A DNA stretch of 64,000 nt from Quadrisphaera setariae (GTDB lineage Bacteria; Actinomycetota; Actinomycetes; Actinomycetales; Quadrisphaeraceae), in contig NZ_VKAC01000001.1 of assembly GCF_008041935.1 (NCBI RefSeq), positions 372,001-436,000 of the forward strand. Direction: 5' to 3'. The translations under genes and the position numbers were made by a program. Shown here piece after piece: positions 6,117 through 24,632 of this stretch (position 1 is its first letter; the number at the start of each line of letters is the position of its first letter). The notes under the pieces were generated by a model that was not told the DNA's origin, did no database searches, and saw only the letters and a list, made by a program, of their open reading frames with translations.

Positions 6117-6157
6117 TGGTGCCGGTCACCCCGTCACCCGCGCGGGTGACAGGGCCT

Positions 6158-6188
6158 GTCAAGGCGGTCCGCCGGCCTGCCGATCACG
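6158..6188 (+). promoter_or_regulatory. Candidate sigma-28 (FliA/WhiG-type) promoter for the diguanylate cyclase
   Basis: GTCA, then 17 bp, then GCCGATCACG. It resembles the boxes found before all five chemoreceptors in this window. It lies about 50 bp upstream of the preferred GTG start at 6236 and excludes the longer reading frame that would start at 6116. Confidence 0.5.
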
Positions 6189-6235
6189 CGGGGGAGACGG
6201 TGCAGAGAGACGCCGTCTCCCGGTGGAGGACGCGC

Positions 6236-7690
6236 GTGGTGGTTTTCGAGCAGCTGCAGGAACCCGAAGGGCTGCGCGAGCGCCAGCGGCTGCTGCTCGC
6301 CGAGTGCGACCTGCTCGAGCCCGACGACGACGCGGACCTGGCCGCTGCTGCGCGCGTCGCCGCAGCCCTGACCGGGTACCCGGTGGCCATGGTCAACGCG
6401 CTGCTCCCGCTGGAGGCGTGCTCCCTGGCCCGCCAGGGCGATGGGCCCGTGGCGATGGTGCGCGAGGAGTCGCTGTGCCACCGCGCGAGCCTCGTGGGCG
6501 GGCCGGTGGTCTCCGGCGACTGCACCACCGACCCCCTCTTCGCCGACCTGCCCTGGGTGGATGGACGGCTCGGTGCCGTGCGTCGCTACGCCATGGCACC
6601 CCTGCAGGTGGACGGCCTCGTGGTGGGCACGCTGTGCGTGCTCCACGAGGAGCCCGGTGACGCGCTCGGCGAGGAACCGTTGGCGCGGCTGGTGGACCTG
6701 GCCGCGATGACGTCCTCGCTGCTGGAGCGCCGCCGCGAGGCCCGGCGGGCCAGGGCCGCTCGCGAAGAGCACGAGCAGGCCCGCGCCTTCGACGCCGCGC
6801 TGCTGCAGTCGTTGCCCGTGGGGGTGGCCGCTGCTGACGCTCACGGGCACCTCACGCACTTCAACGACGCCGTCCGGGACTGGTACGGCGCCCCTGCGGA
6901 CGCCGATGCCGCAGCTGGTCCTGACGACTCGTCCGCCCACTTCGAGCTCTTCGAGGCGGACGGCGCCACACCGCTCGCGCCCGCGCGGGTGCCGCTGCAA
7001 CGCGTCTTCACCGAGGGGTCGGTGACCGGTCAGGAGTACGTCCTGCGCCGGGCCGGGGCACCGCCGCGCACCCTGTCCGGCTCGGGCACGCAGGTGCGCG
7101 ACAGCGGAGGACGGCTGCTGGGCGCCGTCGTCGTCCTGAGCGACGTCACCGAGCAGCGCGCCCTGGAGGCGCAGCTGCGCTGCGCGGCCACGCACGACGC
7201 GCTCACCGGGCTGCCCCACCGCGCACTGCTCGTGGAGCAGCTCGAGCGGGCGCTGTCGCAGGCGCGGTCTGACGGTCGCGCGCCGTCGCGCGTGGCGGTG
7301 CTCTACTGCGACCTCGACGGCTTCAAGGCCGTCAACGACGGGCACGGCCACGCCGCGGGGGACGCGGTGCTGCTCGCCGTCGCCGGGCGCCTGTCCGCGG
7401 CGCTGCGCCCGCAGGACCTGGTGGCACGGCTCGGGGGAGACGAGTTCGTGCTGGTGTGCCCGGGCGTCGCCGACGCGGCGGAGGCCGACGGCATCGCCGC
7501 GCGGCTCGCGCGGGAGGTGTCCGCCCCGGTGGTGGTCGACGGCGTGGAGCTGCGCGTGGGCGTCAGCGTGGGCGTGGAGCTCAGCGAGCCCGGTGAGGGC
7601 GGTGAGGGCGTCGAACGGCTCCTCTCCGCCGCCGACGCGTCGATGTACGCGCGCAAGCGCGAGCGCCGGGAGCAGCGCGCCGGAGTGTGA
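6236..7690 (+). CDS. GAF-PAS-GGDEF diguanylate cyclase
   Basis: This protein makes c-di-GMP from two GTP. It is 484 residues from the chosen GTG, which has GGTGGAGG six bases upstream; a GTG at 6200 is possible. The order is a GAF-like sensor (about 20-165), a PAS domain (about 185-300) and a GGDEF domain (about 315-480). The active site is GGDEF at 400-404. An RPQD motif at 391-394 sits five residues before it, where the product-inhibition I-site (RxxD) belongs. No transmembrane segment is seen, so it is probably cytosolic. It has its own sigma-28-like promoter and lies beside the chemoreceptors, which suggests a role in motile-sessile control. The ligands of GAF and PAS are unknown. Confidence 0.92.
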   Translation: MVVFEQLQEPEGLRERQRLLLAECDLLEPDDDADLAAAARVAAALTGYPVAMVNALLPLEACSLARQGDGPVAMVREESLCHRASLVGGPVVSGDCTTDPLFADLPWVDGRLGAVRRYAMAPLQVDGLVVGTLCVLHEEPGDALGEEPLARLVDLAAMTSSLLERRREARRARAAREEHEQARAFDAALLQSLPVGVAAADAHGHLTHFNDAVRDWYGAPADADAAAGPDDSSAHFELFEADGATPLAPARVPLQRVFTEGSVTGQEYVLRRAGAPPRTLSGSGTQVRDSGGRLLGAVVVLSDVTEQRALEAQLRCAATHDALTGLPHRALLVEQLERALSQARSDGRAPSRVAVLYCDLDGFKAVNDGHGHAAGDAVLLAVAGRLSAALRPQDLVARLGGDEFVLVCPGVADAAEADGIAARLAREVSAPVVVDGVELRVGVSVGVELSEPGEGGEGVERLLSAADASMYARKRERREQRAGV

Positions 7691-7756
7691 ACCGCAACCG
7701 GACGCCCGGCTGCGGTGCTTCGGGGGGTGGGAACCGCAACTGGACGCCCGGCTGCG
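7689..7756. repeat. Two copies of a 26-bp direct repeat
   Basis: Copies at 7689-7714 and 7731-7756 begin GAACCGCAAC and end GGACGCCCGGCTGCG. They differ at one base (C or T at position 11). They lie between two convergent genes, and the first copy overlaps the stop codon of the diguanylate cyclase gene. No function is evident; this may be a slipped duplication or an extragenic repeat family. Confidence 0.7.
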
Positions 7757-7773
7757 AGGAGGGGGCGGAGAGG

Positions 7774-9333
7774 TCAGGCGAGGATCGCCCGGGTGGTGGC
7801 GACCTGCTCGGCCAGCACCCCGGAGATGACCTCCTGCGTGGCGTTGATCTCGTCGACCACGGCGCTGATCTCGTCCAGCCGGGAGATGACGCCCTCCGTC
7901 TGCTCCTGGATCAGCCGCACCCGCTCGTCCACCTCCGTGGTGGCGCGGGCGGTGCCGTTCGCCAGCTCCTTCACCTCCCCGGCGACGACGGCGAAGCCCT
8001 TCCCCACCTCACCGGCCCGCGCCGCCTCGATGGTGGCGTTCAGCGCCAGCAGGTTGGTCTGGGACGCAATGGCCTGGATGGTCGAGACCACCTGCGAGAT
8101 CCGGGTGCTCGCCTCGCCCAGCCCCGCCACCTCGGCGTTCGCCTCCCGCGTCAGGGCGTGACCGCGCCGCGCGACGGTGGCGGCGGCCGCCACGTTGCGC
8201 TCCACCTCCTCGATGGACCCGACCAGCGCGGCACCGGCGGTGGTGAGGCGCTCGCGGGCGGCGATGCGCTCCAGCGCCTGGCCGAGCAGGTAGGCCGTGT
8301 TGCGCAGGGCGCTCTCGCGGCTCGGCGCCAGCTCCAGGGTGCGGGTGGCGAAGAAGTCCATCGTCCCGACGACCTCGCCGTCCACGAGCACCGGCAGGCA
8401 GACGCCGCTCCTGACGCCGGCGCTGCGGGCGGCGGGTGCGCGCACGCAGTCGGTGACGTCCGCGAGGTCCGGCACGAAGACGACGTCGCGGGTCGACCAC
8501 GCGCGGCCGGCCACGCCGACGCCGCGCGCGAAGCTGGAGGTGGTGGTGACGCGGCGGAACTCGTCGTTGACGGAGCCGACCTCCTGGCCGAACCGCAGCG
8601 CGTCACCGCGCTCGTCGAGCTCCCAGAACGAGCCGTAGTCCCACCCGAAGCCCGACCTCACCGTGGCCAGCGCCAGCCGGACCGCCTCGGCGGAGTCGGT
8701 GGCGCGGGACAGGGTGCGCAGCACGGAGCTCACGGCCTCGACGTCCTGGTCGGCCTCGCCGCGGCGCTCGTCCTCCGCCACGCGCTCCAGCGCCTGGGAG
8801 ACCAGCGCCCCGATGGAGCGCAGCGCGTCCAGGCGCTCGGCGCTCAGCTCGACGGTCTCGGTGGTGAAGAAGTCCATGGTGGCGACGACGGCGCCGCCGG
8901 AGGACAGGGGGAAGCACACGCCGCTGCGCACGCCGGAGCGCTTGGCCTCGGGGGCGCGCACGCAGTCCGTCACGTCGCCGATGTCCTCCACGAAGACGAG
9001 GTCGCGGCGCTGCCACGCGCGTCCGGACAGGCCGACGCCCTCGCGGAACGACGCGGCGTGGGTCACCTGCCGGAACGCCTCGCTGGTGGTGCCGGAGTCC
9101 TGCACGAAGACCAGGGCCGCCTCCGCGCCGGTGCCGCGCACGCGCCAGTACGAGCCGTACGCCCACCCGAACCGGGCGCGGACCGTCTCCAGCGCCGCGC
9201 TGACGGCCTCGGCGGAGGTGGAGGCGGAGGTGACGGCCCGGAGCACCTCGACCACGGCGCGGACGTCGGCCTGCGACTCCGACGCCGTGGTCCGCGCCTC
9301 GGTCAGGGCGGACAGCAGGGCGGATCTCTTCAC
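7774..9333 (-). CDS. Soluble methyl-accepting chemotaxis receptor with two GAF domains
   Basis: This 519-residue protein has no transmembrane segment, so it should be a cytoplasmic chemoreceptor. Two GAF domains (about 25-175 and 190-345) precede a short chemoreceptor signalling domain. The conserved hairpin tip ([18 protein letters not shown]) is near residue 430, and it binds CheA/CheW in this family. Both GAF domains carry VTDCVRAP and, ten residues later, SGVC. These cysteines recur in the neighbouring paralogue and may bind a cofactor or sense redox state. The start is GTG with GGGAG 11 bp upstream. It is a close paralogue of 9499-11058 and has a sigma-28-like promoter at 9397-9426. Confidence 0.9.
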
Positions 9334-9396
9334 AGCTGGTGGTGCTCCCTCGGCGACAGCAGCGCCCAGCGCTGCAGCGGTCCCCCCGACGAGGGA

Positions 9397-9426
9397 TGCA
9401 TCGGCAGTCCTTGATCACTGCTGGAG
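9397..9426 (-). promoter_or_regulatory. Candidate sigma-28 promoter for soluble chemoreceptor at 7774-9333
   Basis: On the minus strand, CTCCAG, then 15 bp, then GCCGATGCA. The -10 core GCCGAT and the spacing match those before the other chemoreceptors; the -35 (TCCA) is less good. It lies 64 bp upstream of the GTG start. Confidence 0.5.
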
Positions 9427-9449
9427 CGGTCCGGCCGTGGAGATCGAGA

Positions 9450-9483
9450 AGGGCCCTGCCTGCCCTTCGGCAGACAGGGCCCT
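9450..9483 (-). terminator. Terminator hairpin of soluble chemoreceptor at 9499-11058
   Basis: The arms AGGGCCCTGCCTGCC and GGCAGACAGGGCCCT pair with one mismatch around a 4-5-base CTTC loop. It lies 16 bp downstream of the minus-strand stop at 9499. Confidence 0.75.
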
Positions 9484-9498
9484 CGGGGGCGCTCGGGG

Positions 9499-11058
9499 TC
9501 AGCCGAGGATGGCCCGGGTGACGGCGACCTGCTCGGTCAGGACGCCGGCGATGACGTTCTGGGTCTCGTTGATCTCGTCGACCACGGAGGTGATCGCTGA
9601 GAGGCGCTCGATGACGTCGTTGACCTGGGTCTGGATGAGCCGGACGCGCTCGTCGACCTCGGTGGTGGCCTTGGCGGTGCCGTTGGCCAGCTCCTTGACC
9701 TCACCGGCGACGACGGCGAAGCCCTTGCCCGCCTCACCGGCCCGGGCTGCCTCGATGGTGGCGTTCAGCGCCAGCAGGTTGGTCTGGGAGGCGATGGCCT
9801 GGATGGTGGCGACGACCTTGGAGATCTGCGCGCTGGACTCACCCAGGCCGGAGACGTCGTGGTTGGCCTCCTCGGTCAGGGCCCGCCCCCGCTCGGCGAC
9901 GGTGGAGGCGGCGATCACGTTGCGCTCGACCTCCTCGATGGAGATGACCAGCTCGCGTCCGGCGACGTCGAGCTTCTCCTTGGCGGCGATGCGCTCCAGG
10001 GCCTGGCCGAGCAGGAAGCCGGTGTTGCGCAGCGCGGACTCGCGGCTGGCGGACATCACCAGGGTGCGGGTGGCGAAGAAGTCCATGGTGCCGACGACCT
10101 CGCCGTCGACGACGATCGGCAGGCAGACGCCGCTCTTGACGCCGGCGCTGCGGGCGGCGGGGGCGCGCACGCAGTCGGTGACCTCGGCGAGGTCCTCGAC
10201 GAAGACGAGGTCGCGGGCGGCCCAGGTGCGCCCGGCCACCCCGACGCCGCGGGCGAAGGTGGCGGTGGTGGTGACGCGGCGGAACTCCTCTCCGACCTGG
10301 CCGACCTCGGTGTCGAAGACGAGGGCGTCGCCGCGGGCGTCGAGCTTCCAGAAGGAGCCGTAGTTCCACCCGAAGCCGGACTTGATGGTCTCCAGGGCGA
10401 AGCGGACCGCGCGGGCGGGGTCTTCGGCCTTGGACAGCTCGCGCAGGACGGCGTTGACGGCCTCGACGTCCTGGGCGGCCTTGGCCTGGACCACGGACTC
10501 GTGGACGCGCTCCAGGGCCTGGGAGACCAGCACCCCGATGGAGCGCAGCACGTCCAGGCGGCGGGGGGAGGGGTCGAGGGTGACGTCGGTGAAGAAGTCC
10601 ATGGTGCCGACGACCTGGCCGTGCTCGACCACGGGGAAGCAGACCCCGGAGCGGACCCCGGCGCGCAGCGCGACGGGGGCGCGCACGCAGTCGGTGAGCT
10701 CGGCGATGTCCTTGATGAAGACCAGGTCGCGGGCCTTCCAGGCGCGCCCGGACAACCCGACGCCCTCGCAGAAGGAGGCGGAGCGGGTGACGGCGCGGAA
10801 CTCCTCACCGGTCTGGCCGGACTCCTGCACGAAGCGCAGCTCTGCACCCGGGCCCTTGCCCTCGACCTTCCAGTAGGAGCCGTAGACCCACCCGAACTGG
10901 GTGCGCACGGCCTCCAGGGCGGTGCTGACGGCCTGCTCGGGGGTGGTCGCCGCGGCGACGGCCTTGACCACCTCGACCACGGCGCGCACGTCGGCCTCGG
11001 CCTCGGCCGCCGAGGCGACGGCCTGGTCCAGGGCGCTGGTTCGGCCCGAGCGCTTCAT
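9499..11058 (-). CDS. Soluble methyl-accepting chemotaxis receptor with two GAF domains, paralogue
   Basis: From the ATG at 11058 the protein is 519 residues, exactly the length of its neighbour at 7774-9333. That ATG has AGGAGAG six bases upstream, so I prefer it to a start nine codons earlier. Architecture is GAF (about 25-175), GAF (190-345), then a chemoreceptor signalling domain with the tip [18 protein letters not shown]. There is no membrane span. Both GAF domains keep DCVRAP and SGVC. Tandem duplication is clear, with the signalling half most conserved. It probably feeds a CheA/CheW array located elsewhere; no che gene is in the window. The stimulus is unknown. Confidence 0.9.
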
Positions 11059-11104
11059 CGACGTCTCTCCTCTGGTGTGCGACACCCCACGGCCGCGATG
11101 TGAG

Positions 11105-11134
11105 GATCATCGGCGCCTCGGGAGATCACCTGTA
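11105..11134 (-). promoter_or_regulatory. Candidate sigma-28 promoter for soluble chemoreceptor at 9499-11058
   Basis: On the minus strand, TACAG, then 15 bp, then GCCGATGATC, about 47 bp before the ATG at 11058. It overlaps the last codons of the carbonic anhydrase gene, so the receptor need not rely on read-through from that gene. Confidence 0.5.
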
Positions 11135-11719
11135 GCGCGCGATCCTCTCGTCCACCGAGAGGACGACCGTTCGGGTGCGCGCGTCGCCGGAGCGCGGCTC
11201 CTGGCGGTCAGGCGCCTCGCCCACCTCGGCGAGCGCACCGGAGGTCACGTCGTAGACGAACCCGCGCACCAGGTCCCGGTGGGGGAGCGCCGGCTCGGAG
11301 CGGATGCGCGCCACGGTGTCGCGCACGTTCTGCTGGACGTCGTCGAAGGCGCCGGCGCTGCGCCACGCCGGCTCTACGCCGGTCTCGTTCCACAGCTCCT
11401 CGCGGAACTCCTCACCGTCGAAGGTGGTCAAGGAGCAGCCGGTGTGCTGGACCACCATGACCTCGCGGGTGCTGAGCTTGCGCTGGCTGACGGTCAACGA
11501 GCGCAGGGCGTCGTCGGTGGCGAGCCCGCCCGCGTTGCGCAGCACGTGCGCGTCGCCCTCGGACAGGCCCAGCAGCCGGAAGACGTCGATGCGCGCGTCC
11601 ATGCAGGTCAACACCGTCGTGGCGAGGGCCGGAGGTCCCGGCAGACGACCAGCGCTGAAGGTGGCCGCGTGGTACTCGGCCTGTGCGGCCAGCCGGTCGA
11701 CGGCGGAGAGGTCGGGCAT
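11126..11719 (-). CDS. Beta-class carbonic anhydrase-like protein
   Basis: This 197-residue protein should interconvert CO2 and bicarbonate in the cytoplasm. Zinc ligands are visible as Cys39 (TCMDAR), His92 and Cys95 (QHTGC), with the Asp41/Arg43 dyad that is standard in beta-carbonic anhydrases. It resembles the short actinobacterial/mycobacterial type. The sequence GCCGATCACC lies just before the ATG and matches the -10 of the sigma-28-like boxes, but its -35 (TCGA) is poor, so I do not call a promoter there. It sits between chemoreceptor and kinase genes, and a link to CO2 sensing is speculative. Confidence 0.88.
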   Translation of the reverse strand: MPDLSAVDRLAAQAEYHAATFSAGRLPGPPALATTVLTCMDARIDVFRLLGLSEGDAHVLRNAGGLATDDALRSLTVSQRKLSTREVMVVQHTGCSLTTFDGEEFREELWNETGVEPAWRSAGAFDDVQQNVRDTVARIRSEPALPHRDLVRGFVYDVTSGALAEVGEAPDRQEPRSGDARTRTVVLSVDERIARYR

Positions 11720-11872
11720 GCACGGGTGATCGGCGCGGTCCGGGCCCTCCTCGACACCAGCGGCAGCGCATCACCCGTCGGGTGCTGGGTGCTACCCCCG
11801 TGAGGGAGACAGATCGAGGGCTCAGGCCCTCGAACGGCCTCTGGGGGGAGGGGTTGGGCCCTCCGGGAGGAG

Positions 11873-13162
11873 ATGATTCGCCTCGTGGGCGAGCTGGCAG
11901 CGGGGGGAGCGGCGCAGGCACCGGTGCGCACGTCCGCGCTGCCGTCGCTGCGCCGCTGGCTCTCCGGGTGGCGCACCGGCTCCGCCCGCGTGGTGCTCGA
12001 GACGGGCGTCGTCGTCCTGTGCGCCCTCGAGGTGCTGGCCTGGCAGGAGGTCAGGGCCGACAGCTACTTCGCGGTGGCCGCGGCCACGCTCGTGGCGGTG
12101 CTCGCCCGGCTGCGCTGGCCGGTGGCGGCCGCGCTGGTGGTCGGGCCGGCACTGGGCTGGACCTCCCTGCTGCTCACCCCTCTGGTGCTGCTCTTCACCG
12201 CGGGGCAGAAGGAGCGCCGCGACGGCGTGGTGGTCGCGCTGGTGGTGTGGACGGTGGTGTCCAGCGCCGCCCTCATGACCTGGCAGGACTCCCGCTACCT
12301 GGTCTCGGACGGCCCACTGCGCCTCATCACCGACGTCGCCGCGGCCATCGCCATGGCCGCCGGGGCCGCTGGCCTGGGGCGCCTGGTGCGGACCCGCCGG
12401 GAGCAGTCGGCGGCGCTGCGGGAGCTGGTGGCCGGCCGTGCGCGCGAGCGGGCGCTCGCCGAGCACGCCGCCCGCGCCGAGGAGCGCGCGCACCTGGCCC
12501 GCGAGATGCACGACGTGGTGGCCTCGCAGGTGACGCTCATCGCCGTGCAGGCCGCCGGGCTGCGGATGCTGCCCGACGTCGACGACCGCACCCGCGCGGT
12601 GGCGGAGACCATCCGCGCGGCGGCGGCGCAGACCACGCGCGAGCTGCGCGAGGTGCTCGCCGACCTGCGCGGCCCCGAGCAGCTGCACGGCCCCGCACCT
12701 CAGGCCCGTGCGGTCTGCCTGGGGGAGCTGGACCGGCTGTGGGCCTCGGCCGGCTGCGCCGGGCAGCTGGTGGTGCAGGTGCCCGACGGCGCTGAGGTGG
12801 CGGCGCCGGTGCAGCGCGCCGCCTACCGGATCCTCCAGGAGGGCCTGACCAACGCCGTGCGCTACGCGCCGGGCGCGGTGGTCAGGGCGGGGGTGGAGGT
12901 GGTGGCCTCCACCCTGGTGGTGTCCGTGGTCAACGGGCCGCCGCCCGCGTCGTCGACGACGACGGCGGCGGCGGGGGAGGCCCCGGTGCCGCAGCCGGCT
13001 GCGCCGGATGCGACAGGGGCGTCGGTGGGCAGGGCGCTGTCCACCGGCAACGGGCTCGTGGGCGTGCGCGAGCGCGCCCAGGCGCTCGGTGGGTACGCGG
13101 GCTGGGGCGCCACCGACGACGGCGGCCACCAGCTCACCGCCGTGCTGCCCCTGAAGGGCTGA
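11873..13162 (+). CDS. Orphan sensor histidine kinase (NarL-associated HisKA_3 type)
   Basis: This 429-residue protein has an N-terminal hydrophobic region (about 40-165) of several membrane segments with short loops and no large sensor domain. Then comes a HisKA_3 dimerisation/phosphoacceptor motif (HLAREMHDVVASQ) and a HATPase_c domain. The N-box is QEGLTNAVRYA and the G2 region is GNGLVGVRERAQALGG. A low-complexity Ala/Pro/Thr insert of about 45 residues sits in the ATP lid region. No response regulator is adjacent, which is unusual because these kinases normally pair with a NarL/FixJ regulator. The ATG at 11873 is directly against GGAGGAG, so a GTG 12 bases later may be the real start. 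Confidence 0.85.
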   Translation: MIRLVGELAAGGAAQAPVRTSALPSLRRWLSGWRTGSARVVLETGVVVLCALEVLAWQEVRADSYFAVAAATLVAVLARLRWPVAAALVVGPALGWTSLLLTPLVLLFTAGQKERRDGVVVALVVWTVVSSAALMTWQDSRYLVSDGPLRLITDVAAAIAMAAGAAGLGRLVRTRREQSAALRELVAGRARERALAEHAARAEERAHLAREMHDVVASQVTLIAVQAAGLRMLPDVDDRTRAVAETIRAAAAQTTRELREVLADLRGPEQLHGPAPQARAVCLGELDRLWASAGCAGQLVVQVPDGAEVAAPVQRAAYRILQEGLTNAVRYAPGAVVRAGVEVVASTLVVSVVNGPPPASSTTTAAAGEAPVPQPAAPDATGASVGRALSTGNGLVGVRERAQALGGYAGWGATDDGGHQLTAVLPLKG

Positions 13163-13185
13163 CCCGCCGCACCTCGCCGTCAGCC

Positions 13186-14769
13186 TCAGACGGTGAAGCG
13201 ACCGGTCAGCTCCTGCAGCTTGCTGGCCGAGGCGGCCAGGCTGCGGGCGGTGTCCGCGGTCGCCCCGGCCCCCTCGCGGTTCTGGTCGGTGCCGCGGGCG
13301 ATGTCGGAGACGTTGGAGGAGATCTGCGCGGAGCCGGTGGAGACCTCGGTGACGTTGCGGACCATCTCGTTGGTGGTGGCGGACTGCTCCTCCACCGCGG
13401 CGGCGATGGTGGCCTGGACGGCGTCGATGCGGGCGATGACCTCACCGATCTCCGTGACCGCGGTGGCCGCCGCGGAGGCGTCGCCCTGGGTGGCGTGGAC
13501 CTTGCTGATGATCTCCTCGGTGGCCTGGGCCGTCTGGCGCGCGAGCTCCTTGACCTCCCCGGCGACCACGGCGAAGCCCTTTCCGAGCTCCCCGGCGCGG
13601 GCGGCCTCGATGGTGGCGTTCAGGGCCAGGAGGTTGGTCTGCTCGGCGATGGAGGTGATGAGCTTGACGACGTCGCCGATCTCCTGGCTGGAGGTGCCGA
13701 GCCGCTCGATGGCGGAGCCGGCAGAGGAGGCGGCGGCCACGGCGCTGGAGGCCATCGCGGAGGCGTCAGAGGTGGCGGTGGCGATCTGGGCGATGGCGGC
13801 GGTCATCTCCTCGCCAGCTGCGGCGACGGTGGAGATGGACACCGAGACCTCCTCGGAGGCGGCGGCCACCACCTGCGTCTGGGCGGCGGCCTCCTGCGCG
13901 CCCGAGGCCATCTGCGCGGAGACGCTGGACAGCGACGCGGAGGCGGCGGCAAGGGAGCGGGCCTCCTCGCCGATCTCACGCATGGCCGTGCCGAGGGAGG
14001 TGACGGTGGAGTCCACGGCGCCGGCCAGCTGGCCGACCTCGTCCTTGGTGGTGAGGCCGACGCGGCGGTCCAGGCGGCCGGCGGCCACGTCGACCATCAC
14101 CGCCATGACGCGGGACAGCGGGCCGCTCACGGACCGGGACACCAGCAGCGCCATCGCCACGGCCAGCACCATGGCGACCACGGCGCAGCCACCCACGAGC
14201 AGCACGGACGTGCGGTAGGCGGCCTTGCCCTCGGCGGCCATGTCGCCCGCGGTGGCCAGCTCGGTGTGGGTGATGGCGTCGATGGCGGCGAAGGCCGCCT
14301 TGGCCGGGGGAGTGGCCTTCTCCTTGCGGACCTCGACGAAGCCCTCGGCGTCGCCCGCCTTCGCCAGCGGCACCATCTCGGCCAGAGCCGCTCGGTACTG
14401 GGCCAGGGCGGTGGTGAAGGCGGCCTGCTGCTCGCCGGTCGCTGCGGGCTTGGAGTCCGTGTAGGCCTTCCACGCGACGTCGAGGGCGGTGTCGCTCTTC
14501 GTCAGCACCTCCACCGCGGCGGTGACGCCGTCGCCCTTGGCGAGGGCGAGGTTGGCCACGTCGAAGCGGACCTGGAGCAGGGCCAGGGACGCGCGGTCCG
14601 CGGTGTCGACGGAGACCAGGCCGGAGCTCGCCAGCGAGTCGAGGTCCGCCTGGGCCGACGCGAGGCGCGTGAGGGCCAGGCCGCTGACCACCGCCAGGAG
14701 GAGGCAGACCACGCCGAAGCCGGCGAAGAGCTTGTGCGCGATGCGCAGGTCGGCGAGGCGACGGACCAC
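13186..14769 (-). CDS. Transmembrane methyl-accepting chemotaxis receptor A
   Basis: Classical chemoreceptor of 527 residues: TM1 (about 9-33), an extracellular four-helix-bundle-like domain (34-170), TM2 (about 173-200), HAMP, and a signalling domain. The hairpin tip ([19 protein letters not shown]) is near residue 375. I chose the GTG at 14769 because GGAGG lies six bases upstream. Receptors B and C have the same arrangement and then come out at 528 residues each. An ATG 14 codons earlier lacks a ribosome binding site. The extracellular domain differs most between the three paralogues, so they probably sense different ligands. Confidence 0.92.
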
Positions 14770-14863
14770 GGGGATCCTCCGGGGTTGCAGAAGAAGGGGT
14801 GACTCCTTCATCGGTCGCCGGCGGATCCCCTTGAGGGGATGCGACACCTGTGTCGGTCCCTCT

Positions 14864-14894
14864 TCATGATCGGCAGGAACCGCCGAGATCTGAA
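14864..14894 (-). promoter_or_regulatory. Candidate sigma-28 promoter for chemoreceptor A
   Basis: On the minus strand, TTCAG, then 15 bp, then GCCGATCATGA. The same -10 is found before receptor B. It lies about 95 bp upstream of the GTG start. Confidence 0.6.
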
Positions 14895-14940
14895 CCACCT
14901 GTGAACAGCAGATCTGTGGGGAGACCCGGAGCAGGACGAC

Positions 14941-14988
14941 GACGAAGGCCACTGGGCGGCGTGGTAGCGCCGCCCGGTGGCCCTCGTC
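14941..14988 (-). terminator. Terminator hairpin of chemoreceptor B
   Basis: A long inverted repeat with core GGCCACTGGGCGGCG / CGCCGCCCGGTGGCC around a six-base loop TGGTAG lies 20 bp downstream of the minus-strand stop at 15008. The stem extends outward through GACGA/TCGTC. It separates receptor B from the promoter of receptor A. Confidence 0.75.
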
Positions 14989-15007
14989 GAGGCCTCGGAG
15001 CCCGACC

Positions 15008-16594
15008 TCAGACGGTGAAGCGCCCGGTGAGCGCCTGCAGCGCCTCGGCCGAGGCCGCCAGAGAGCGGGCGGTCGCGGCGGTGTGCCCGGCGCCCTCGCG
15101 GTTCTGGTCGGTGCCGCGGGCGATGTCGGAGACGTTCGCCGAGATCTGTGCCGAGCCGGTGGAGACCTCGGTGACGTTGCGGACCATCTCCGACGTCGTC
15201 GCGGACTGCTCCTCCACGGCCGCGGCGATGGTGGCCTGCACCTCGTCGATGCGGGAGATGACCTCACCGATCTCGGTCACCGCGGCCGCAGCGGCCGCGG
15301 TGTCGCTCTGGGTGGCCGAGACCTTGCTGATGATCTCCTCGGTGGCCTGCGCGGTCTGGCGGGCCAGCTCCTTGACCTCCCCGGCGACCACGGCGAAGCC
15401 CTTGCCGAGCTCCCCGGCGCGGGCGGCCTCGATGGTGGCGTTCAGGGCGAGCAGGTTGGTCTGCTCGGCGATGGAGGTGATGAGCTTGACGACGTCGCCG
15501 ATCTCCTTCGAGGAGACCCCGAGCCGCTCGATGGCGTCACCGGCCGAGCTCGCGGCCGTGACCGCGGACGCCGCCATGGACGACGCCTCTGACGTGGCGG
15601 TGGCGATCTGCGCGATGGCGGCGGTCATCTCCTCTCCGGCGGCGGCGACGGTGGAGATGGACATCGACACCTCCTCGGACGCGGCGGAGACGACCTGCGT
15701 CTGGGTGGCGGCCTCCTCGGCGCCGCTGGAGATCTGCGCGGCCACGCCGGACAGCGCGGACGACGCCGTCGCCAGGGACCGCGCCTCCGCGCTGATGTCG
15801 CGCATCGCGGTGCTCAGCGACCCGATGGTCGCGTCCGTGGCGGCGCCGAGCTGGCCGACCTCGTCGCGGGTGCCGAGGCCGACGAGGCGGTCGAGGCGGC
15901 CCTGGGACACGCCGGTCATGACCTCGACCACCCGGGCCAGGGGGCGGGTCACCGAGCGCGAGACCACGAGGGCCATCGCCACGGCCAGGGCGACGGCGAG
16001 GGCGGCGCAACCCACGAGCAGCGCCACCGCGGCGCGGTAGGCGGACTCGCCGTGGTCAGCGGTGGCGGCCGCCGCTTCGGTCTCGGCCTTGGTGAGGTCG
16101 GCCAGCGCGGTGGCGGCAGCCGCGGCCTCGGGGAAGACCTTCTCCGCGCGCTGCTCGACGAAGCCCGAGAGGTCGTTCGCCTTGGCCAACGGGATGACGC
16201 CCTCCACCGCAGTGCGCCACCGGGCCAGCGCGGAGGTGAAGGCCTCCTGCTGCGCGGGCGTGCTCGCGGGTGAGCTGCCGCGGTAGGCCTTCCACTGCTC
16301 GTCGAGCTTCTTCTGGTCCGCGTCGAGCGTCGCGAGGGCCTTGTCGGTGCCCGCGGCGTCGGGGGTGAGGGCGGCGTTGGCGAGGTCGAACTTCAGCGTC
16401 ACGAAGGCGGTGGCGGTCTTGTCGACGGCGTCGACGGAGGCCAGGCCGCTCTCGGAGAGCGTGCGGAGGTTCTCTTGCGCCTGCCCGAGCCTCACCACGC
16501 CGATGCCTGCGACGGCGACCAGCAGGATGCAGACGACGCCGAAGCCGGCGAAGAGCTTGTGCGCGACCCGGAGGTCGGCGAGGCGACGGAGCAC
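15008..16594 (-). CDS. Transmembrane methyl-accepting chemotaxis receptor B
   Basis: This 528-residue protein has the same order as receptor A: TM1 within [17 protein letters not shown], a variable extracellular helical domain, TM2 within the run [23 protein letters not shown], and a signalling domain with the [19 protein letters not shown] tip. The GTG start has GGGGGA upstream; starts further up (ATG at 16639 or earlier) have no binding site. The signalling half is almost the same as in A, while the ligand domain is diverged. That pattern suggests tandem duplication followed by sensory divergence, perhaps with gene conversion of the C-terminal half. Confidence 0.92.
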
Positions 16595-16692
16595 GGAGTT
16601 CCCCCGGGGGTTGCAGAGAGAGGACGACGAGTCCTCCATCGGTCTGCATGCGGCCTTCTTGAGGGAGGCACCAGGGAAGTCATGGGCCGCTC

Positions 16693-16723
16693 TCATGATC
16701 GGCGAGATCGGCACGGACTTGAG
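16693..16723 (-). promoter_or_regulatory. Candidate sigma-28 promoter for chemoreceptor B
   Basis: On the minus strand, CTCAA, then 15 bp, then GCCGATCATGA. This is the best example in the window and fits the flagellar sigma-28 form (CTCA or TAAA, 15-16 bp, GCCGAT). It lies about 100 bp before the GTG start. Confidence 0.65.
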
Positions 16724-16760
16724 CAACTCGTGAACAAGTCCGCCAGGCCGAGGGGTGCGC

Positions 16761-18347
16761 TCACACGGTGAAGCGGCTCGTCAGCTCGGCCAGGCGCGAG
16801 GCCGCCGCCGTGAGGTCGGCAGCGGTGTCGGCCGTGTGGGCGGCGCTGTCCTTGTTCTGCTCGCTGCCGGCCGCGATCCCGGCGATGTTCTCCGAGATCT
16901 GCCCCGAGCCCACCGACACCTCGGTGACGTTGCGGACCATCTCCGAGGTGGTCGCGGACTGCTCCTCCACCGCGGCGGCGATGGTGGACTGCAGCGCGTC
17001 GACCTCGGCGATGACCCCACCGATCTGCAGCACCGCCTCCGCGGCCGCGGAGGCGTCGCCCTGGGTGGCGGAGACCTTGGCGACGATGTCGTCGGTGGCC
17101 TTGGCGGTCTGGCGGGCCAGCTCCTTGACCTCTCCGGCGACCACGGCGAAGCCCTTGCCCATCTCGCCCGCGCGGGCGGCCTCGATGGTGGCGTTCAGGG
17201 CGAGGAGGTTGGTCTGCTCGGCGATGGTGGTGATGAGCTTGACGACGTCGCCGATCTCGCGGGAGGAGACCCCGAGGCGCTCGATGGCGGAGCCGGCCTG
17301 GCCTGCGGCGGCCACGGCGCAGGCGGCCTTGGTGGAGGCGGTGGAGGTGGCGGTGGCGATCTGGGCGATGGCGGCGGTCATCTCCTCTCCGGCGGCGGCG
17401 ACGGTGGAGATGGAGACCGAGACCTCCTCGGAGGCGGCGGCCACGACCTGGGACTGGGTGGCGGCCTCGTGGGCGCCGGAGGCGAGCTGGGTGGAGACGC
17501 TGGACAGGGAGGTGGCGGAGGTGGCCAGGGCGCTGGCCTCGGTGGTGATGTCGCGCATGGCGCTGGCCAGGGCGTCCAGGGAGGTGTCGGTGGAGGCGGC
17601 CAGCTGGCCGACCTCGTCCTTGCGGTCCAGGCCGACGCGCACGTCGAGGCGGCCGGTGGCCACGCCGGCCATGACCTCCACCACCTTCCTCAGCGGGCGG
17701 GTGATCGAGCGGGAGACCACCACGGCGATCGCCCCGGCCAGCGCCAGCGCCAGCAGCGTGCAGGTGGTGAGGACGGCCACGGCCTCGCGGTAGGTGGCCT
17801 CGTCCTTCGCGGCCAGCGCGTCGGCGGCGTCCTGCTCGGCCCGGGTGACGGCCTTGATGGCCGTCAGGGAGGCCTTCGCCGCGGGCGTGGTGGTGGTGTT
17901 GCGGGCTTGGACGAAGCCGGCGAGGTCGTTCGCCTTCGCCAGGGAGACCAGCGTCGGCACGCCGCTCTCGAACTGCTGCAGGGACGTCGCGAACGCCTGC
18001 TGCTGCTCGGTGGAGCTGGCGGGGCCGGAGTCGAGGTAGGCCTTCCAGGCCGCGTCCAGGTCCGTGAGCGCGGACTCGGTGGCGGCGGCGGCCTCCCGCA
18101 CCTGCGCGGGGTCGTTGACGAGTGCGAGGTTCGCCAGCTGGAGGCGGACCTGCATGAGCGCGAGGGCGGTGTCCTTGGACGCCACCACGGAGGGGATGAC
18201 CGACGTGCTGACGGAGGAGAGGTCGTGCTGGGCGGCGCGGAGCTTGACGAAGCTGACACCGCTGACCACGGCGAGCAGCACGCAGACCACGCCGAAGCCG
18301 GCGAACAGCTTGGTCGAGACCTTGAGGTCGGCGAGCGTGCGCAGCAC
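16761..18347 (-). CDS. Transmembrane methyl-accepting chemotaxis receptor C
   Basis: This third tandem chemoreceptor is 528 residues from the GTG at 18347 (GGAGG five bases upstream). Domains are TM1, a variable extracellular helical bundle, TM2, HAMP and a signalling domain with the tip [19 protein letters not shown]. The open frame continues hundreds of codons upstream, antisense to nothing real and through the 3' end of the GGDEF-EAL gene. An ATG at 18395 lies inside the putative promoter -10 and is therefore rejected. Receptors A, B and C share start context, length and promoter type, so they are a recent tandem family. Confidence 0.92.
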
Positions 18348-18385
18348 GGGGTCCTCCGGGGGACGGTGTGGGGAGACGCGGGTGA

Positions 18386-20773
18386 TCACTTCCATGATCG
18401 ACCGGGTGTCATCACTCCTTGAGGGGACGGCTGCACCTCGGCGGCAGCGCGCCCTGGCGCGCCCCACCAGACGGCCAGCTGGTCGGCCGGCATCGGCCTG
18501 GCGAAGAGGTACCCCTGGATCTCGTCGCAGCCCAGGGCCACCAGGCACGCCAGCGTGTCGGGGTCCTCCACGCCCTCGGCCACCACGCTGAGCCCGAGCG
18601 CGTGGGCGAGGGAGACCGTGCTCCCGACGATCGTGCGGGCCCGCTCGTCGTCCAGCAGGCCGTGGGTGAAGGACGCGTCCAGCTTCAGCTCGTCCACGGG
18701 GAGTCCGCGCAGGCGGGCGAGGGAGGAGTAGCCGGTGCCGAAGTCGTCGATGCTCACCCGGGCCCCGGCGGCCCGCAGCGCCTGCACCACCGCGCTGGAG
18801 CGCTCGGGGTCTCTCAGCAGCGCCGACTCCGTCACCTCGAGCACGAGGTCGCTGGCGGGCACGCCGTGCGCGGCCAGGAGCTCGGCCACGCGGCGCGGCA
18901 GGTCGACGTCGCGCAGGGCGCTGGCGGGGAGGTTCACCGACATCCGCGTGACCAGCCCGGCGCGCCGCCACACCGCCTGCTGCTCCACCCCGAGCCGCAG
19001 GACCTCCTCGGTGAGCAGGCCCATGAGGCCGTGCGTCTCGGCGAGGTCGAGGAACGCCGCGGGGCCGAGCAGCCCGAGCGCGGGGTGCTGCCAGCGCACG
19101 AGCGCCTCCACCCCCACGGGCTCTCCTGTGGTCGCGGCCACCTGCGGCTGGTGGTGGAGCACGAGCTGCCGCTGGGCCAGCGCCACGCGCAGGTCCGCCA
19201 CGCGCTCCAGCTGGCCGGCGGTGTCTCCGTGGCGAGCCGGGTCGTGGGCCGTCCACCCGCCACCGGAGCGCTTGGCGTCGTACATCGCCGTGTCGGCGGC
19301 GCGCAGCAGCCGTGCCGCCAGCTCGGACGGGTCGTCGTCGTCCTCAGCGGAGGTGGGGGAGGGCGACGGCGGCAGCCAGACGGCGGTGCCGGTGCTCGCC
19401 CCCACCAGCACGCTCACGGCGCTCAGCTGCACCGGTGCGTCGAGGCACGTCACCACGGCGGCCCCGAGCACAGCGGCGCGGACGACGGGGGAGGCGTCGG
19501 GGTCGCACGGGGCCACCACCACGAACTCGTCGCCGCCGAGGCGGGCCACCACCTCACCGGGCTGCAGCAGACCGCTCAGGCGGGCAGCCACGGTGCGCAG
19601 CAGCACGTCTCCGGCGGCGTGGCCGAGGGAGTCGTTGACCTCCTTGAAGCGCGTCAGGTCGATCACCGCCACCACCACGGGGCGCTGCTGCACGAGCGCC
19701 TGCACCAGCAGCGCCGTCACGGCGCGGCGGTTGGGCAGGCCGGTGAGCTCGTCGGTGAAGGAGGAGCGGCGGTTGGCGACCAGCTGCCGCAGCTCGCGCA
19801 CGTCGAGCAGCAGCCGGCCCCCGCAGGCGAGCGCGGCGAGGCCCGCGACAGCTGCCACCCACGGCATGTGCTGGAGCAGGGCGACGGCGACGACGGGCAG
19901 CGACACCGCCAGGACCGCGTAGCCGGTGACGCTGCTGATGACCACGTCCTGGCGCTCGTGAGCGCGCGGCACCTCCGGGAGCCCGGCGCAGACCACCAGC
20001 GCCAGCGGCCAGGCCAGCCGCACCAGCAGCGCCCACGGGGTCAGGGGGATGGGGGTCAGCACCAGCACGGCCGTGCCGGCGGCCACGACGAACAGCGCGG
20101 TGCCCATGAGGAGGGGGCGCGGGTCTCCGCGGCGCAGGGAGCCGCGGTTGGTGGCGGCGAGCACGCCGATCACCACGAGGTTGGCGCAGATGGCGACCAC
20201 GCCGGGCAGCTCGGTGCCGAAGCCGAGACCGCTGCCGCCGCTGAGCAGGTGCGAGAGGACCTGCACGCCCGCCGTCATCACGACGACGGCGCAGAGGGTG
20301 CCGACCACGTGGTCGGGGTCGACCCCGCGGCCGCCCAGGGCGGGCCGAGTCCAGCGGATGACCGCCAGGTACGTCAGCGCCATCATCGCCATCACCGCGG
20401 CGCACAGCACCGCGGTGATGACCGCCTCCGGCAGCGCCTTGGCCGTGGCGGCCCAGACCCCCAGGACGCCCGCGACGACCGCCCACAGCGACGCGCGGAG
20501 CCCGCGCCACAGCTGGTGCTCGGTCTGCGTGCGCCGCAGCCGCCGCTGGATCGCGAGGCCCGCGGTGACCACCAGGGCGAGGTACCCGATGGCGGCGCCG
20601 CTGGCGCCGACCGGTCCCGGCACCGCGAAGGGGCTCACGACGACGACGAGCGCTGACGCCACGGCCGCGCTCAGCGCTGCGCGTGGCGCCCTGCCGGCGC
20701 TGGAGCGGGGACGGTGCACACCCCTGGATCGACCGGCGGGCCTGGCTGGTCGAGCACGGCGGGTGCTGCTCAC
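18386..20773 (-). CDS. Membrane GGDEF-EAL c-di-GMP turnover protein
   Basis: This 795-residue protein has an N-terminal region (about 25-300) of eight to ten hydrophobic segments, then GGDEF (motif near 414) and EAL (near 555). The GGDEF motif is intact, but the I-site position reads QPGE, so product inhibition is probably lost. The EAL domain keeps EALVRW, a catalytic Asn (SVNLPAS), [24 protein letters not shown] and EGVED. It should therefore hydrolyse c-di-GMP and may be bifunctional. The GTG start has no strong binding site. It may oppose the cyclase at 6236-7690. Its 3' end contains the promoter region of chemoreceptor C. Confidence 0.9.
18392..18423 (-). promoter_or_regulatory. Candidate sigma-28 promoter for chemoreceptor C
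   Basis: On the minus strand, CTCAA, then 16 bp, then GTCGATCATGG. It differs from the A and B boxes by one base in the -10 core and one extra spacer base. It lies immediately downstream of the GGDEF-EAL stop codon at 18386-18388 within that gene's last codons. Confidence 0.5.
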
Positions 20774-21051: not shown

Positions 21052-22431
21052 TCAGGAGTCCCAGGGCTCCTCGGGTGCTTCTCGCACCGAGGCTCCTACG
21101 GCGCTCACGGGGAGGGTCGGAGCTTCCAGCGTCTTGACGAACGGTGTGGTCAGTCGCCCACTGCTCCGTCTCGTCGACGTGAGCCCAGCAAGGGTCTGCC
21201 GGGCCACCGCTGCGATGAGCGGTGCCGTGCGGCTGGCGACCTCGTCGGCCTCGGCTGCGGGCGACTCGGCCACCGCTGTGTCGAAGGCCGCGGGCAGAGA
21301 TTCCGCGAGCTCAGCCACCCACTCGAGGACACGTGCCGCGGGGACGCCCGCGGCGCGGGCCAACCGCTCCCAGTGCGGCCGCTCGACGTCACCGAAGTGG
21401 CGTTCGCCGCCGACGGACATGGCTCCCCTGGTCCAGCGCAGTCGTCCACCATCGCTGGGGACGAGCCCGGTGGCGACGTCGTACAGGGGGGCCAGGGTCA
21501 CGGTCTTCGCGATGAGCAGCAGTCCGTAGTTCTTGCCGTGGGCGTCCGGCGCGCCGAGCACCTGGTTGGCGATGACGGCGCGCACGAAGCCCTCGAGGGA
21601 CGGGGCGGCGGCCACGGAGCGCAGCAGGTCAGCCACCTGCTTCACCCCTGGTCCTCCGTCGGACTCGTACTTCCGCCGAGGGTCGAGGGCGAAGGCCTGG
21701 AGGAGGTCCTCCTGGTGCACCCTCGCCACTCCCTTCGCGTGGGTGCGCCGGTCGAACCTCGTGACGACGACGGCGTCCTGGTCCTCGAAGGTCAGGTGCT
21801 GCGTCTCGGCCACGTCCAGCCCGGCGATGGCCAGGGCTCGCATCGTCAGGTGCTCCAGCAGCGCCTGTCCTGGAATGCGCCCGATCCCTGGCTTGACGAT
21901 GTGGGTGGACGGCGCGCTGCCCTCGGGGAAGGCCCAGCCGTGCTCGGTCCGGGCGAGCGTGAACTTGGACTGCGCGCCGGCCAGGCTCCACGGCTCCTCG
22001 TCCTCGTCGTCCTGCCAGGCCGCCTCGTCCTGCCGGAACCGGCGCAGACGTGCTGCGATGGTGGCGTCATCGGCAGCCTCGAGGGTTCCCGGACGCGTGA
22101 GGGCGTCGTGGATCTCGCTCTCAGGGGCGAAGATCGCGCCTCCTGAGACGTCGAGTCCCACGTGGGCCACCAGCCCCAGGGTGTCGCCTGGGCGGACACC
22201 CGCCTTCAACGCCCAGCGCGCTCGGACCTCGTCACGGTCAGGCAGCAACCCTCGGAGGTAGGCCTCGATGGGGCGCTTCGTCGCGACGGTGTCGCTGACG
22301 GGCAGGGACAAGGACAGCGGAGTGGAGTTGTGCAGCTCGCGGTACTCCCGCTCGTAGCGCAGGGTCAGCCGTCCGCCGTCACGCTCGATGACTCCCGCGA
22401 CGCGCCCGTAGAGGGCGAAGGCGATCCTCAC
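21052..22431 (-). CDS. hipA: HipA-family serine/threonine kinase toxin
   Basis: This 459-residue protein matches HipA toxins, which phosphorylate a cellular target and arrest growth unless bound by HipB. The N-terminal HipA_1 subdomain covers about 1-110. In the kinase region GAQSKFTL and HIVKPGIG correspond to the ATP-binding part. VLGAPDAHGKN carries the catalytic Asp and the following DxHxKN signature. LYDVATG supplies the metal-binding Asp. The start overlaps the hipB stop (ATGA), as expected for a toxin-antitoxin pair. All key residues appear intact, so it should be active. The target (for example a tRNA synthetase) cannot be read from sequence. Confidence 0.92.
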   Translation of the reverse strand: MRIAFALYGRVAGVIERDGGRLTLRYEREYRELHNSTPLSLSLPVSDTVATKRPIEAYLRGLLPDRDEVRARWALKAGVRPGDTLGLVAHVGLDVSGGAIFAPESEIHDALTRPGTLEAADDATIAARLRRFRQDEAAWQDDEDEEPWSLAGAQSKFTLARTEHGWAFPEGSAPSTHIVKPGIGRIPGQALLEHLTMRALAIAGLDVAETQHLTFEDQDAVVVTRFDRRTHAKGVARVHQEDLLQAFALDPRRKYESDGGPGVKQVADLLRSVAAAPSLEGFVRAVIANQVLGAPDAHGKNYGLLLIAKTVTLAPLYDVATGLVPSDGGRLRWTRGAMSVGGERHFGDVERPHWERLARAAGVPAARVLEWVAELAESLPAAFDTAVAESPAAEADEVASRTAPLIAAVARQTLAGLTSTRRSSGRLTTPFVKTLEAPTLPVSAVGASVREAPEEPWDS

Positions 22432-22694: not shown

Positions 22695-22764
22695 TGTCAC
22701 GGTACCGCGACAATGCACATTGTCACGGTTCCATGACATCTCCCATTGTCACGGTGCCGTGACA
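22695..22764. promoter_or_regulatory. Three phased HipB operators
   Basis: Three 18-bp palindromes of the form TGTCACGGTNCCRTGACA lie at 22695-22712, 22721-22738 and 22747-22764. The third is a perfect inverted repeat, the second has one deviating pair, and the first ends CCGCGACA. Starts are exactly 26 bp apart, about 2.5 helical turns. The site nearest hipB ends four bases before its ATG, and the farthest contains the stop codon of the nuclease gene. HipB binding is inferred from position and from known autoregulation of HipB proteins. Confidence 0.85.
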
Positions 22765-24500
22765 CTAGAACGTCCTGGTGGTGTTGCCAGCACCTGCTCG
22801 ATGAACTCAGGGTGGACTCGGACTGCGACGACGGCGCGCCGACCGGTCAGGAAGCGCAAGCGCACCACCGACTGCAGTGGCCGTGCCCCTGTGGCGGCGA
22901 TGTCCCCGCGCGACCGGAGTCGGTTGACCACTCGGGTGAGCGCCCCACTGCGGCTGTTGAAAGCTGTTCCTGGCTGGTCGCCGAGCAGGGTGCGCACGTC
23001 GTCGCGCTTGAGCCGGCCGCCAGCACGGGCTGCGGCGTGCATCACGGTCAGCGCTTCGTGAGCTGACGACAAGCGGCGGGCGTCGTCGGCAAGCTCGTAG
23101 AGCACCAGTTTCACGTCGTCGACGTCCCACGACGACGCGTCCTCGTCATCGCCGTCGTCGTGCTCCTCGTCGTCGTGGTCCTGATCAGCATCGAGGTGGT
23201 CTTCGTCGACCTCGCGGTGCCCGTCGCCGGCGTCGGCGTGCTCTGGCGGTTCCGCGCCAGGGAGAGGCTCCGAAGCCGGTGGCGACGATGCTGAGGAGGG
23301 CGCCACGACCTGCTCCCCGTCGTCAGCGGGTGCTGGCTCGGGAAGCAGAGCTGCAGGCGGGATGGCGACGGCGGGTTCCACCGAGACGCAGCGCAGCGCC
23401 ATCTGCTGACCGTTGGCGTCGACGCCGGGCGGGTCCGCCAGGCGGTAGACCAGAGTGATGGGCTGGCCGTTCCAGAAGAACGTCAGTCGTTCGCGTCGAC
23501 CGTCCTCCGTCAGCGGCGCACCGGCCGTGGTGAGGAGGCTGTGCTCCAGCAGCGCTGGGACTCCCACCCTCAGGTGGAAGGGGCGCGTCGGGTCCTGCGA
23601 GGAGAAGACCCAGTCGCCGCCGTCCAGCGGGTCCGCGGAGACCGGGTCGAACGCGTACAGGCTCGGCACCTCGCGGGTCCGGCTCTCCTGCGCCAGGGCG
23701 GAGAGCGCTGCGAGGTCCGCGTCGCCGTCAGGGCGGATGACCAGCATCATGCGCCCGCTGGTGTGGGCGATGAGCAGTGACCGCTCGTGCAGGTCCGCGA
23801 GGCTCGAGAAGGCGTCGACCAGGGCTTCCACCTGCTCCAGGCTCACGAGTCCCTGCGCCAGTCGAGACTGGGCCGCGGCCAGGACGCGCTGGTCGGGTTG
23901 CAGGGGTGGGAGCGGCTGGACCGGGCCGGTGGACGTCGGTGTGCCGAGCGCTTCGCGGAGCAGCTGCCGGGCCCAGGGGAGGGGTACGGACCGTCCCGCG
24001 GAGACGAGGATCGTGCCGAGGGCGTCGGCGGTGGTCTCCACACCGTGACGCAGCAGCTGCCACGCCTTGCCGGTGAAGTCCTGCAGGGAGATGCCGTGCG
24101 CGTCGGCGAACCGCTGGGCGTCCGTGGAGTAGCCACCCGTGGAGAAGAAGACGCTCTGGTGGTCGTAGCGTCGCCGGCCGCTGCCCGGCACGAACTGGTT
24201 GACGTCGGCGAGGACCGCGTAGGAGCTGCGCACGGCGGGCAGTCCGACCTTGTCGGCGCGGTGCTTCGCCTCGACGAAGAGGCGCAGGCGGTAGCCGAAC
24301 GGCACGACCGCGGTGAGCAGTGCGAGCACGTCCGCCTGGTGATCACCTCCGCGACCGCGCACGGCCAGACCGTTCCCCTTGCGGACGAGGCCCTCGGCAT
24401 CGTCCTCGACCTGGGTGACGAGCTGGTACCCGGCCGTGTGGAGCAGGCGTGCCAGCGCCTCTTCCATGACGTACCCGCGGAGACTCTCCTTCGAGACCAC
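22749..24500 (-). CDS. PD-(D/E)XK restriction-endonuclease-like protein with C-terminal acidic linker and wHTH-like tail
   Basis: This 583-residue protein is counted from the GTG at 24500, chosen because it keeps the conserved opening LRGYVMEEALARLL. Residues 1-160 look like an Mrr-type nuclease: Asp56 (HQADVL) and Glu76-Ala-Lys78 (FVEAKHR) form a D...ExK site. A central beta-rich region (about 300-400) follows. Then comes a strongly acidic stretch rich in Asp, Glu and His. The tail starts SSWDVDDVK and resembles a winged helix. A diverged, truncated relative lies at 29551-30625. It sits between the HNH gene and hipBA on the same strand. A defence role is inferred. Confidence 0.75.
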   Translation of the reverse strand: MVSKESLRGYVMEEALARLLHTAGYQLVTQVEDDAEGLVRKGNGLAVRGRGGDHQADVLALLTAVVPFGYRLRLFVEAKHRADKVGLPAVRSSYAVLADVNQFVPGSGRRRYDHQSVFFSTGGYSTDAQRFADAHGISLQDFTGKAWQLLRHGVETTADALGTILVSAGRSVPLPWARQLLREALGTPTSTGPVQPLPPLQPDQRVLAAAQSRLAQGLVSLEQVEALVDAFSSLADLHERSLLIAHTSGRMMLVIRPDGDADLAALSALAQESRTREVPSLYAFDPVSADPLDGGDWVFSSQDPTRPFHLRVGVPALLEHSLLTTAGAPLTEDGRRERLTFFWNGQPITLVYRLADPPGVDANGQQMALRCVSVEPAVAIPPAALLPEPAPADDGEQVVAPSSASSPPASEPLPGAEPPEHADAGDGHREVDEDHLDADQDHDDEEHDDGDDEDASSWDVDDVKLVLYELADDARRLSSAHEALTVMHAAARAGGRLKRDDVRTLLGDQPGTAFNSRSGALTRVVNRLRSRGDIAATGARPLQSVVRLRFLTGRRAVVAVRVHPEFIEQVLATPPGRSSVTAP

Positions 24501-24604
24501 ACCTGGGCATCGGCGTGTCGGTGGGTCCCGCGCAGGTCCACCTGCGGGGGACGACGCACGGGAGGCTGCCTCTGGCTCGTCGATGAGGAGTCCGCGCTGC
24601 TGCA

Positions 24605-24632
24605 TCCGGCCCCGAAGACGTCGGGGGCCGGA
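24605..24632 (-). terminator. Terminator hairpin of DUF222-HNH gene
   Basis: TCCGGCCCCGA pairs with TCGGGGGCCGGA (one bulged base) around a five-base loop. It lies about 50 bp downstream of the minus-strand stop at 24684 and before the nuclease gene. Confidence 0.6.

Follow-up and report, generated by a model that had tools for sequence, protein, structure and literature searches.

Promoter boxes at the diguanylate cyclase locus

A diguanylate cyclase (DGC) gene lies beside five chemoreceptor genes in this part of a Quadrisphaera (Kineosporiaceae) genome, which raises the question of whether c-di-GMP synthesis is written into the motility regulon here and, if so, which sigma factor would read it. 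The window, meaning the whole 64,000-nucleotide stretch that was analysed, corresponds to C1:372001-436000 of a 4.9 Mb genome in 33 contigs, and gene starts were taken from a simple gene caller. The GGDEF signature and RxxD I-site of the DGC are intact as judged by eye from its sequence. The original prediction placed a sigma-28-like promoter before each of the six genes, and all six boxes were present, either exactly at the predicted sites or within a few bases of them. The features are as follows, with the score of each box in brackets.

6157-6189 (+): predicted sigma-28/WhiG-type promoter of the DGC gene; -35 TCAAG at 6159-6163, -10 GCCGAT at 6179-6184 (held-out score 17.7)
6236-7690 (+): DGC, GAF-PAS-GGDEF, 484 aa (Pfam)
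7774-9333 (-): soluble GAF-GAF chemoreceptor (Pfam MCPsignal, GAF_2)
9395-9427 (-): box of chemoreceptor 7774-9333; -35 TCCAG, -10 GCCGAT (19.5)
9499-11058 (-): soluble GAF-GAF chemoreceptor (Pfam; start from gene caller)
11104-11136 (-): box of chemoreceptor 9499-11058; -35 TACAG, -10 GCCGAT (16.5); overlaps the 3′ end of a carbonic-anhydrase-like gene, 11126-11719
13186-14769 (-): TarH/4HB-HAMP-MCP chemoreceptor (Pfam)
14805-14836 (-): nearer box of chemoreceptor 13186-14769, CCTCAAG-N-ACCGATG (22.4)
14864-14896 (-): farther, weaker box of the same gene, TTCAG-N-GCCGATCATGA (13.9)
15008-16594 (-): TarH/4HB-HAMP-MCP chemoreceptor (Pfam)
16633-16664 (-): nearer box of chemoreceptor 15008-16594 (19.9)
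16693-16724 (-): farther box of the same gene, GCTCAAG-N-GCCGATCATGA (22.3)
16761-18347 (-): TarH/4HB-HAMP-MCP chemoreceptor (Pfam)
18392-18424 (-): box of chemoreceptor 16761-18347 (20.3); within the 3′ end of the GGDEF-EAL gene 18386-20662
18386-20662 (-): GGDEF-EAL protein, directly upstream of chemoreceptor 16761-18347; its own box is weak (12.8)

Some details of the prediction needed correction. A YTCA-like -35 element had been described for all six boxes, but those at 9397 and 11105 read TCCAG and TACAG. A single box had been assigned to each gene, overlooking the nearer boxes at 14805-14836 and 16633-16664, the first of which is stronger than the farther box that had been chosen at 14864-14896. 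The two tandem pairs (14805-14896 and 16633-16724) share the same layout, with boxes about 60 bases apart, suggesting that a chemoreceptor gene was duplicated along with its promoter. Beside the GGDEF-EAL gene lie a HipA-like gene (21052-22431, -) and an Mrr-type endonuclease-like gene (22749-24605, -).

Enrichment of the box

Taken literally, the proposed consensus CTCA-N-GCCGAT is not a significant signal, as CTCA-N15-18-GCCGAT matched once in the window against 0.53 matches expected by chance. It was therefore set aside as a test, and a gapped matrix was built instead from the sequences upstream of 21 chemoreceptor genes located outside the window, using TCA[AG]-N15/16-GCCGA as the seed. 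The trained consensus is [GC][CA]TCAAG-N15/16-GCCGATG. As background we used 447 genes from 500 kb of contigs C4 and C6 with GGDEF and chemoreceptor genes removed, three of which scored above 16. All six held-out window genes exceeded this score (17.7 for the DGC; 19.5, 16.5, 22.4, 22.3 and 20.3 for the chemoreceptors; Fisher p = 7e-12), and 1000 dinucleotide shuffles of each upstream region gave p values of 0.001-0.003 for every one of them. The box is therefore not equally common before unrelated genes, one of the outcomes that the original prediction had named as refuting it. Across the genome, 22/25 chemoreceptor genes scored above 16 (20 of the 25 had been used in training), and this fell to 0-2 when the spacer was shifted by 4-10 bases. 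Occasional matches occur in coding DNA, such as 10110-10141 and 32102-32134, at roughly background density. A reversed-pattern control of the genome pattern search (43 vs 4 matches) was discarded as evidence, since codon bias alone could produce the difference.

Compared with the sigma-28/WhiG class (a TAAA-like -35, about 15-16 bp, and -10 GCCGATAA), the GCCGAT element agrees, whereas the -35 here is TCAAG rather than TAAA. Taken with the enrichment before chemoreceptor and flagellar genes, the sequences support assignment of the boxes to the sigma-28/WhiG-type promoter class.

Conservation and extent of the proposed regulon

Orthologues of the DGC, 60-77% identical, were detected in four further Quadrisphaera genomes (G001, G002, G003 and G005), and its closest named relatives are from Quadrisphaera granulorum and 'Streptomyces' sp. 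NP160. A box reading TCAAG-N-GCCGAT or GCCGAC (score 15.6-17.1) precedes 4/4 of the Quadrisphaera orthologues, 82-104 bases ahead of the called start, and the upstream neighbours vary in some. With the promoter class enriched and the DGC box conserved in four other species, the core of the original prediction, a sigma-28-type promoter class shared by motility genes and the DGC gene, is supported. The box was also looked for, without success, before the more distant DGC orthologues of Geodermatophilaceae, for which RsiG has been reported; this counts against the explanation we favour below.

On the flagellar contig, boxes were found before flgB, fliM, flhA, cheB, flgN (weak), a gene for a FliA-like sigma factor and fliC (weak), and flagellin genes carry boxes in 8 genomes of three genera, with a best score per genome of 12.6-21.1. 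The genes pilM and that of a T2SSE/MshEN (pilB-like) ATPase carry them as well. The proposed link to 'late' flagellar expression is thus too narrow, as flgB, fliM and flhA are early flagellar genes and pilus genes are also included.

The most striking extension concerns c-di-GMP enzymes. Among the 56 GGDEF genes of the genome, 16 scored above 16 and 21 above 14, an enrichment with p = 5e-14 relative to the full background and 3.5e-10 when only background genes with 100 or more intergenic bases are used for comparison; two of the strong matches initially obtained on C6 proved to be GGDEF genes. The DGC does belong to the set as predicted, but it is no special case, being one of about 16-21 boxed GGDEF genes. 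The boxed genes encode both GGDEF-EAL (C10:115701) and GGDEF-only proteins (C6:289500, C6:290631). About two thirds of GGDEF genes are without a strong box, which again counts against our favoured explanation. In the relatives, 23/44 GGDEF genes and 18/27 chemoreceptor genes scored above 14, dropping to 0 with the spacer shifted by 6; in this GGDEF set one gene counts twice (two G005 loci), and the four DGC orthologues are part of it.

In ten GGDEF genes a box scoring above 13 sits 35-37 bases ahead of the start codon. Position played no part in the training, and among background genes scoring above 10 none had its best site in this interval. This spacing puts the -10 element near -14 and the expected transcription start at the start codon, implying that these ten genes would yield leaderless mRNAs.

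Sigma factors and RsiG

The prediction also needs correcting as regards the sigma factor, as the genome encodes two FliA/WhiG-type sigma factors. It also encodes RsiG, the anti-sigma factor of WhiG that is armed by c-di-GMP, which had been overlooked. WhiG, on C7, scores 415 bits against the NCBIfam WhiG equivalog cut-off of 343, adjoins genes reading as rpsB-tsf-pyrH and is closest to the Streptomyces venezuelae WhiG of structure 6pfj. The other factor lies on C10 in the flagellar cluster, among flgL, flgK, flgN and fliC. At 169-170 bits it falls below the TIGR02479 FliA/WhiG cut-off of 189.6, so we treat it as a divergent relative and call it FliA-like. It is only about 35% identical to WhiG, though both share the RIRGA..DELR and ESR motifs, and its gene carries a box (13.9) that is also found in several relatives.

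Searching for the E(X)3S(X)2R(X)3Q(X)3D motif led to RsiG, a protein of 166 aa. It scores 73.6 bits with Pfam PF22802 (cut-off 27), matches the solved RsiG of 6pfj at 8.6e-15, and is present in 13/13 family genomes searched. The first of its two repeats of this motif is complete; in the second, E, S, R and Q are retained but D is replaced by G or S throughout the genus. In the G012 homologue (L282, genus g4) the first c-di-GMP repeat has lost S, Q and D, and this protein may have lost c-di-GMP control. Given the missing D of the second repeat and the losses in G012, c-di-GMP binding by RsiG is not certain, a further point against the explanation favoured below.

Residues K57, G61 and R62 of WhiG contact c-di-GMP (PMC8325347). 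All three are kept in 8/8 WhiG sequences, whereas in 9/9 FliA-like sequences, from 9 genomes, K57 is replaced by G, R62 by E, and G61 by S, N or R. WhiG is therefore the likely partner of RsiG, if RsiG acts with c-di-GMP here. The box sequence does not discriminate use by WhiG from use by FliA-like, and the whiG and rsiG genes have no box of their own; both results count against our favoured explanation. By eye, no clear subclass set flagellar boxes apart from GGDEF boxes in a way that might distinguish the two sigma factors. One genome, G006, seemingly without flagellin and FliA-like, looked like a possible natural experiment on WhiG acting by itself, but was set aside on account of its 9 chemoreceptor matches and a completeness of only 90%.

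A proposed c-di-GMP-gated regulon and its alternatives

The explanation we favour, with a probability of roughly 0.6, is a WhiG/FliA regulon in which RsiG would provide a c-di-GMP gate and the regulon's GGDEF genes would supply feedback. The computations show that the promoter class is enriched and conserved, that WhiG, FliA-like and RsiG are all encoded, and that the c-di-GMP contacts are retained in WhiG and lost from FliA-like. Chemoreceptor and flagellar genes, together with a sizeable fraction of the GGDEF genes, would make up the regulon both in Quadrisphaera and in further genera of its family, joined in this genome by a few type IV pilus genes. WhiG would read the boxes, possibly joined or followed by FliA-like. 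At high c-di-GMP, RsiG together with c-di-GMP would hold WhiG and keep the regulon off; as c-di-GMP falls, WhiG would be released, and motility proteins would be made along with many GGDEF enzymes, including the DGC of the window. Their products would alter c-di-GMP, and its turnover would feed back on the RsiG-WhiG switch. Promoter use, the identity of the sigma factor, c-di-GMP binding by RsiG and the sign of the feedback are points that we infer.

The boxes could instead be real promoters of GGDEF genes whose activities are mixed or opposing, giving co-expression and no meaningful feedback. The occurrence of GGDEF-EAL as well as GGDEF-only proteins among the boxed genes speaks for this, but boxed GGDEF genes are over-represented in at least two genera, a pattern suggestive of selection for the link, and we find this reading doubtful. 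Another arrangement would have FliA-like alone reading the boxes, leaving WhiG and RsiG to serve other genes and motility free of a c-di-GMP gate. Such a division would suit a factor that lacks the c-di-GMP contact residues, shares the RIRGA..DELR and ESR motifs with WhiG, and is encoded among flgL, flgK, flgN and fliC by a gene that itself has a box, in several relatives too. Its low identity to WhiG and sub-threshold family score argue the other way, as WhiG is the canonical member; WhiG also has the promoter specificity of flagellar sigma factors, and promoters of this kind precede DGC/PDE and pilus genes in Rubrobacter (PMC8325347). We therefore consider use by FliA-like alone unlikely. 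Chance similarity in GC-rich DNA would fit the failure of the literal consensus to be enriched in the window. It is hard to square with the enrichment among held-out genes, the dependence on the spacer, the fixed leaderless position and the conservation between species, and we regard it as highly improbable.

A bolder form of the c-di-GMP-gated regulon, offered tentatively, is that in flagellated Kineosporiaceae RsiG replaces FlgM, such that c-di-GMP acting through RsiG-WhiG would gate flagella, chemotaxis, pili and about one third of the GGDEF genes in a genome-wide feedback loop, with the c-di-GMP-blind FliA-like reading the same promoters as a bypass.

Comparison with known systems

The nearest precedent is Rubrobacter, where 5 of the 12 WhiG-type promoters that were mapped lie before DGC/PDE genes and a feedback has been proposed (PMC8325347). 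As in our case, RsiG is present and WhiG-type promoters stand upstream of type IV pilus genes and of several DGC/PDE genes. The 12 promoters mapped there belong to an organism with pili, no reported flagella or chemotaxis, and a single-motif RsiG, unlike the present genome with its flagella, chemotaxis, about 16 boxed GGDEF genes, a second, FliA-like sigma factor and a twin-motif RsiG with a degenerate second repeat. The RsiG-WhiG pair of S. venezuelae (6pfj, 6pfv) has an orthologous WhiG and a twin-motif RsiG, but governs sporulation in a non-motile organism. In Actinoplanes missouriensis, WhiG-like FliA-family sigma factors direct flagellar and pilus genes (PMC8325347, PMC13293333), a likeness in flagellar sigma factors; the difference is that three FliA factors operate there and RsiG is missing (PMC8325347). 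The FliA-FlgM systems of enterobacteria and Bacillus likewise place a sigma-28-type promoter before chemotaxis and flagellin genes, but FlgM is the brake there, and it is reported to be absent from Kineococcus (2008; PMC2587704) and from later actinobacterial classes (2023; PMC10746217).

What WhiG does in simple motile actinobacteria had not been studied according to a 2013 paper (PMC4255298), and flagellated actinobacteria have unusually many c-di-GMP enzymes for a reason that is not known (PMC2587704, PMC4255298, PMC10746217). A WhiG/FliA regulon holding many such enzymes, with RsiG as candidate brake, would unite these two observations with the reported absence of FlgM, and an RsiG-WhiG feedback loop could explain how flagella are controlled without FlgM in such soil actinobacteria. 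The case thereby combines the facts from Rubrobacter, Actinoplanes and the absence of FlgM into one testable system. No paper linking RsiG to flagella was found in the literature searched, which left most subscription journals and bioRxiv outside.

Other genes preceded by boxes

A leaderless box at C9:42108-42133 (-; L028) precedes the gene of a T2SSE ATPase that has an MshEN domain; in MshE-type ATPases this domain binds c-di-GMP. The strongest exact-pattern box (25.2), at C3:343892-343917 (-; L017), has leaderless spacing and lies before a gene for a 68 aa protein without a Pfam match. Elsewhere on C3, a box scoring 21.9 (201269-201294, -; L016) precedes the gene of an ECF-sized protein with sigma-70 regions 2 and 4, and with a sigma-type gene in this position the regulon may pass on to another sigma factor.
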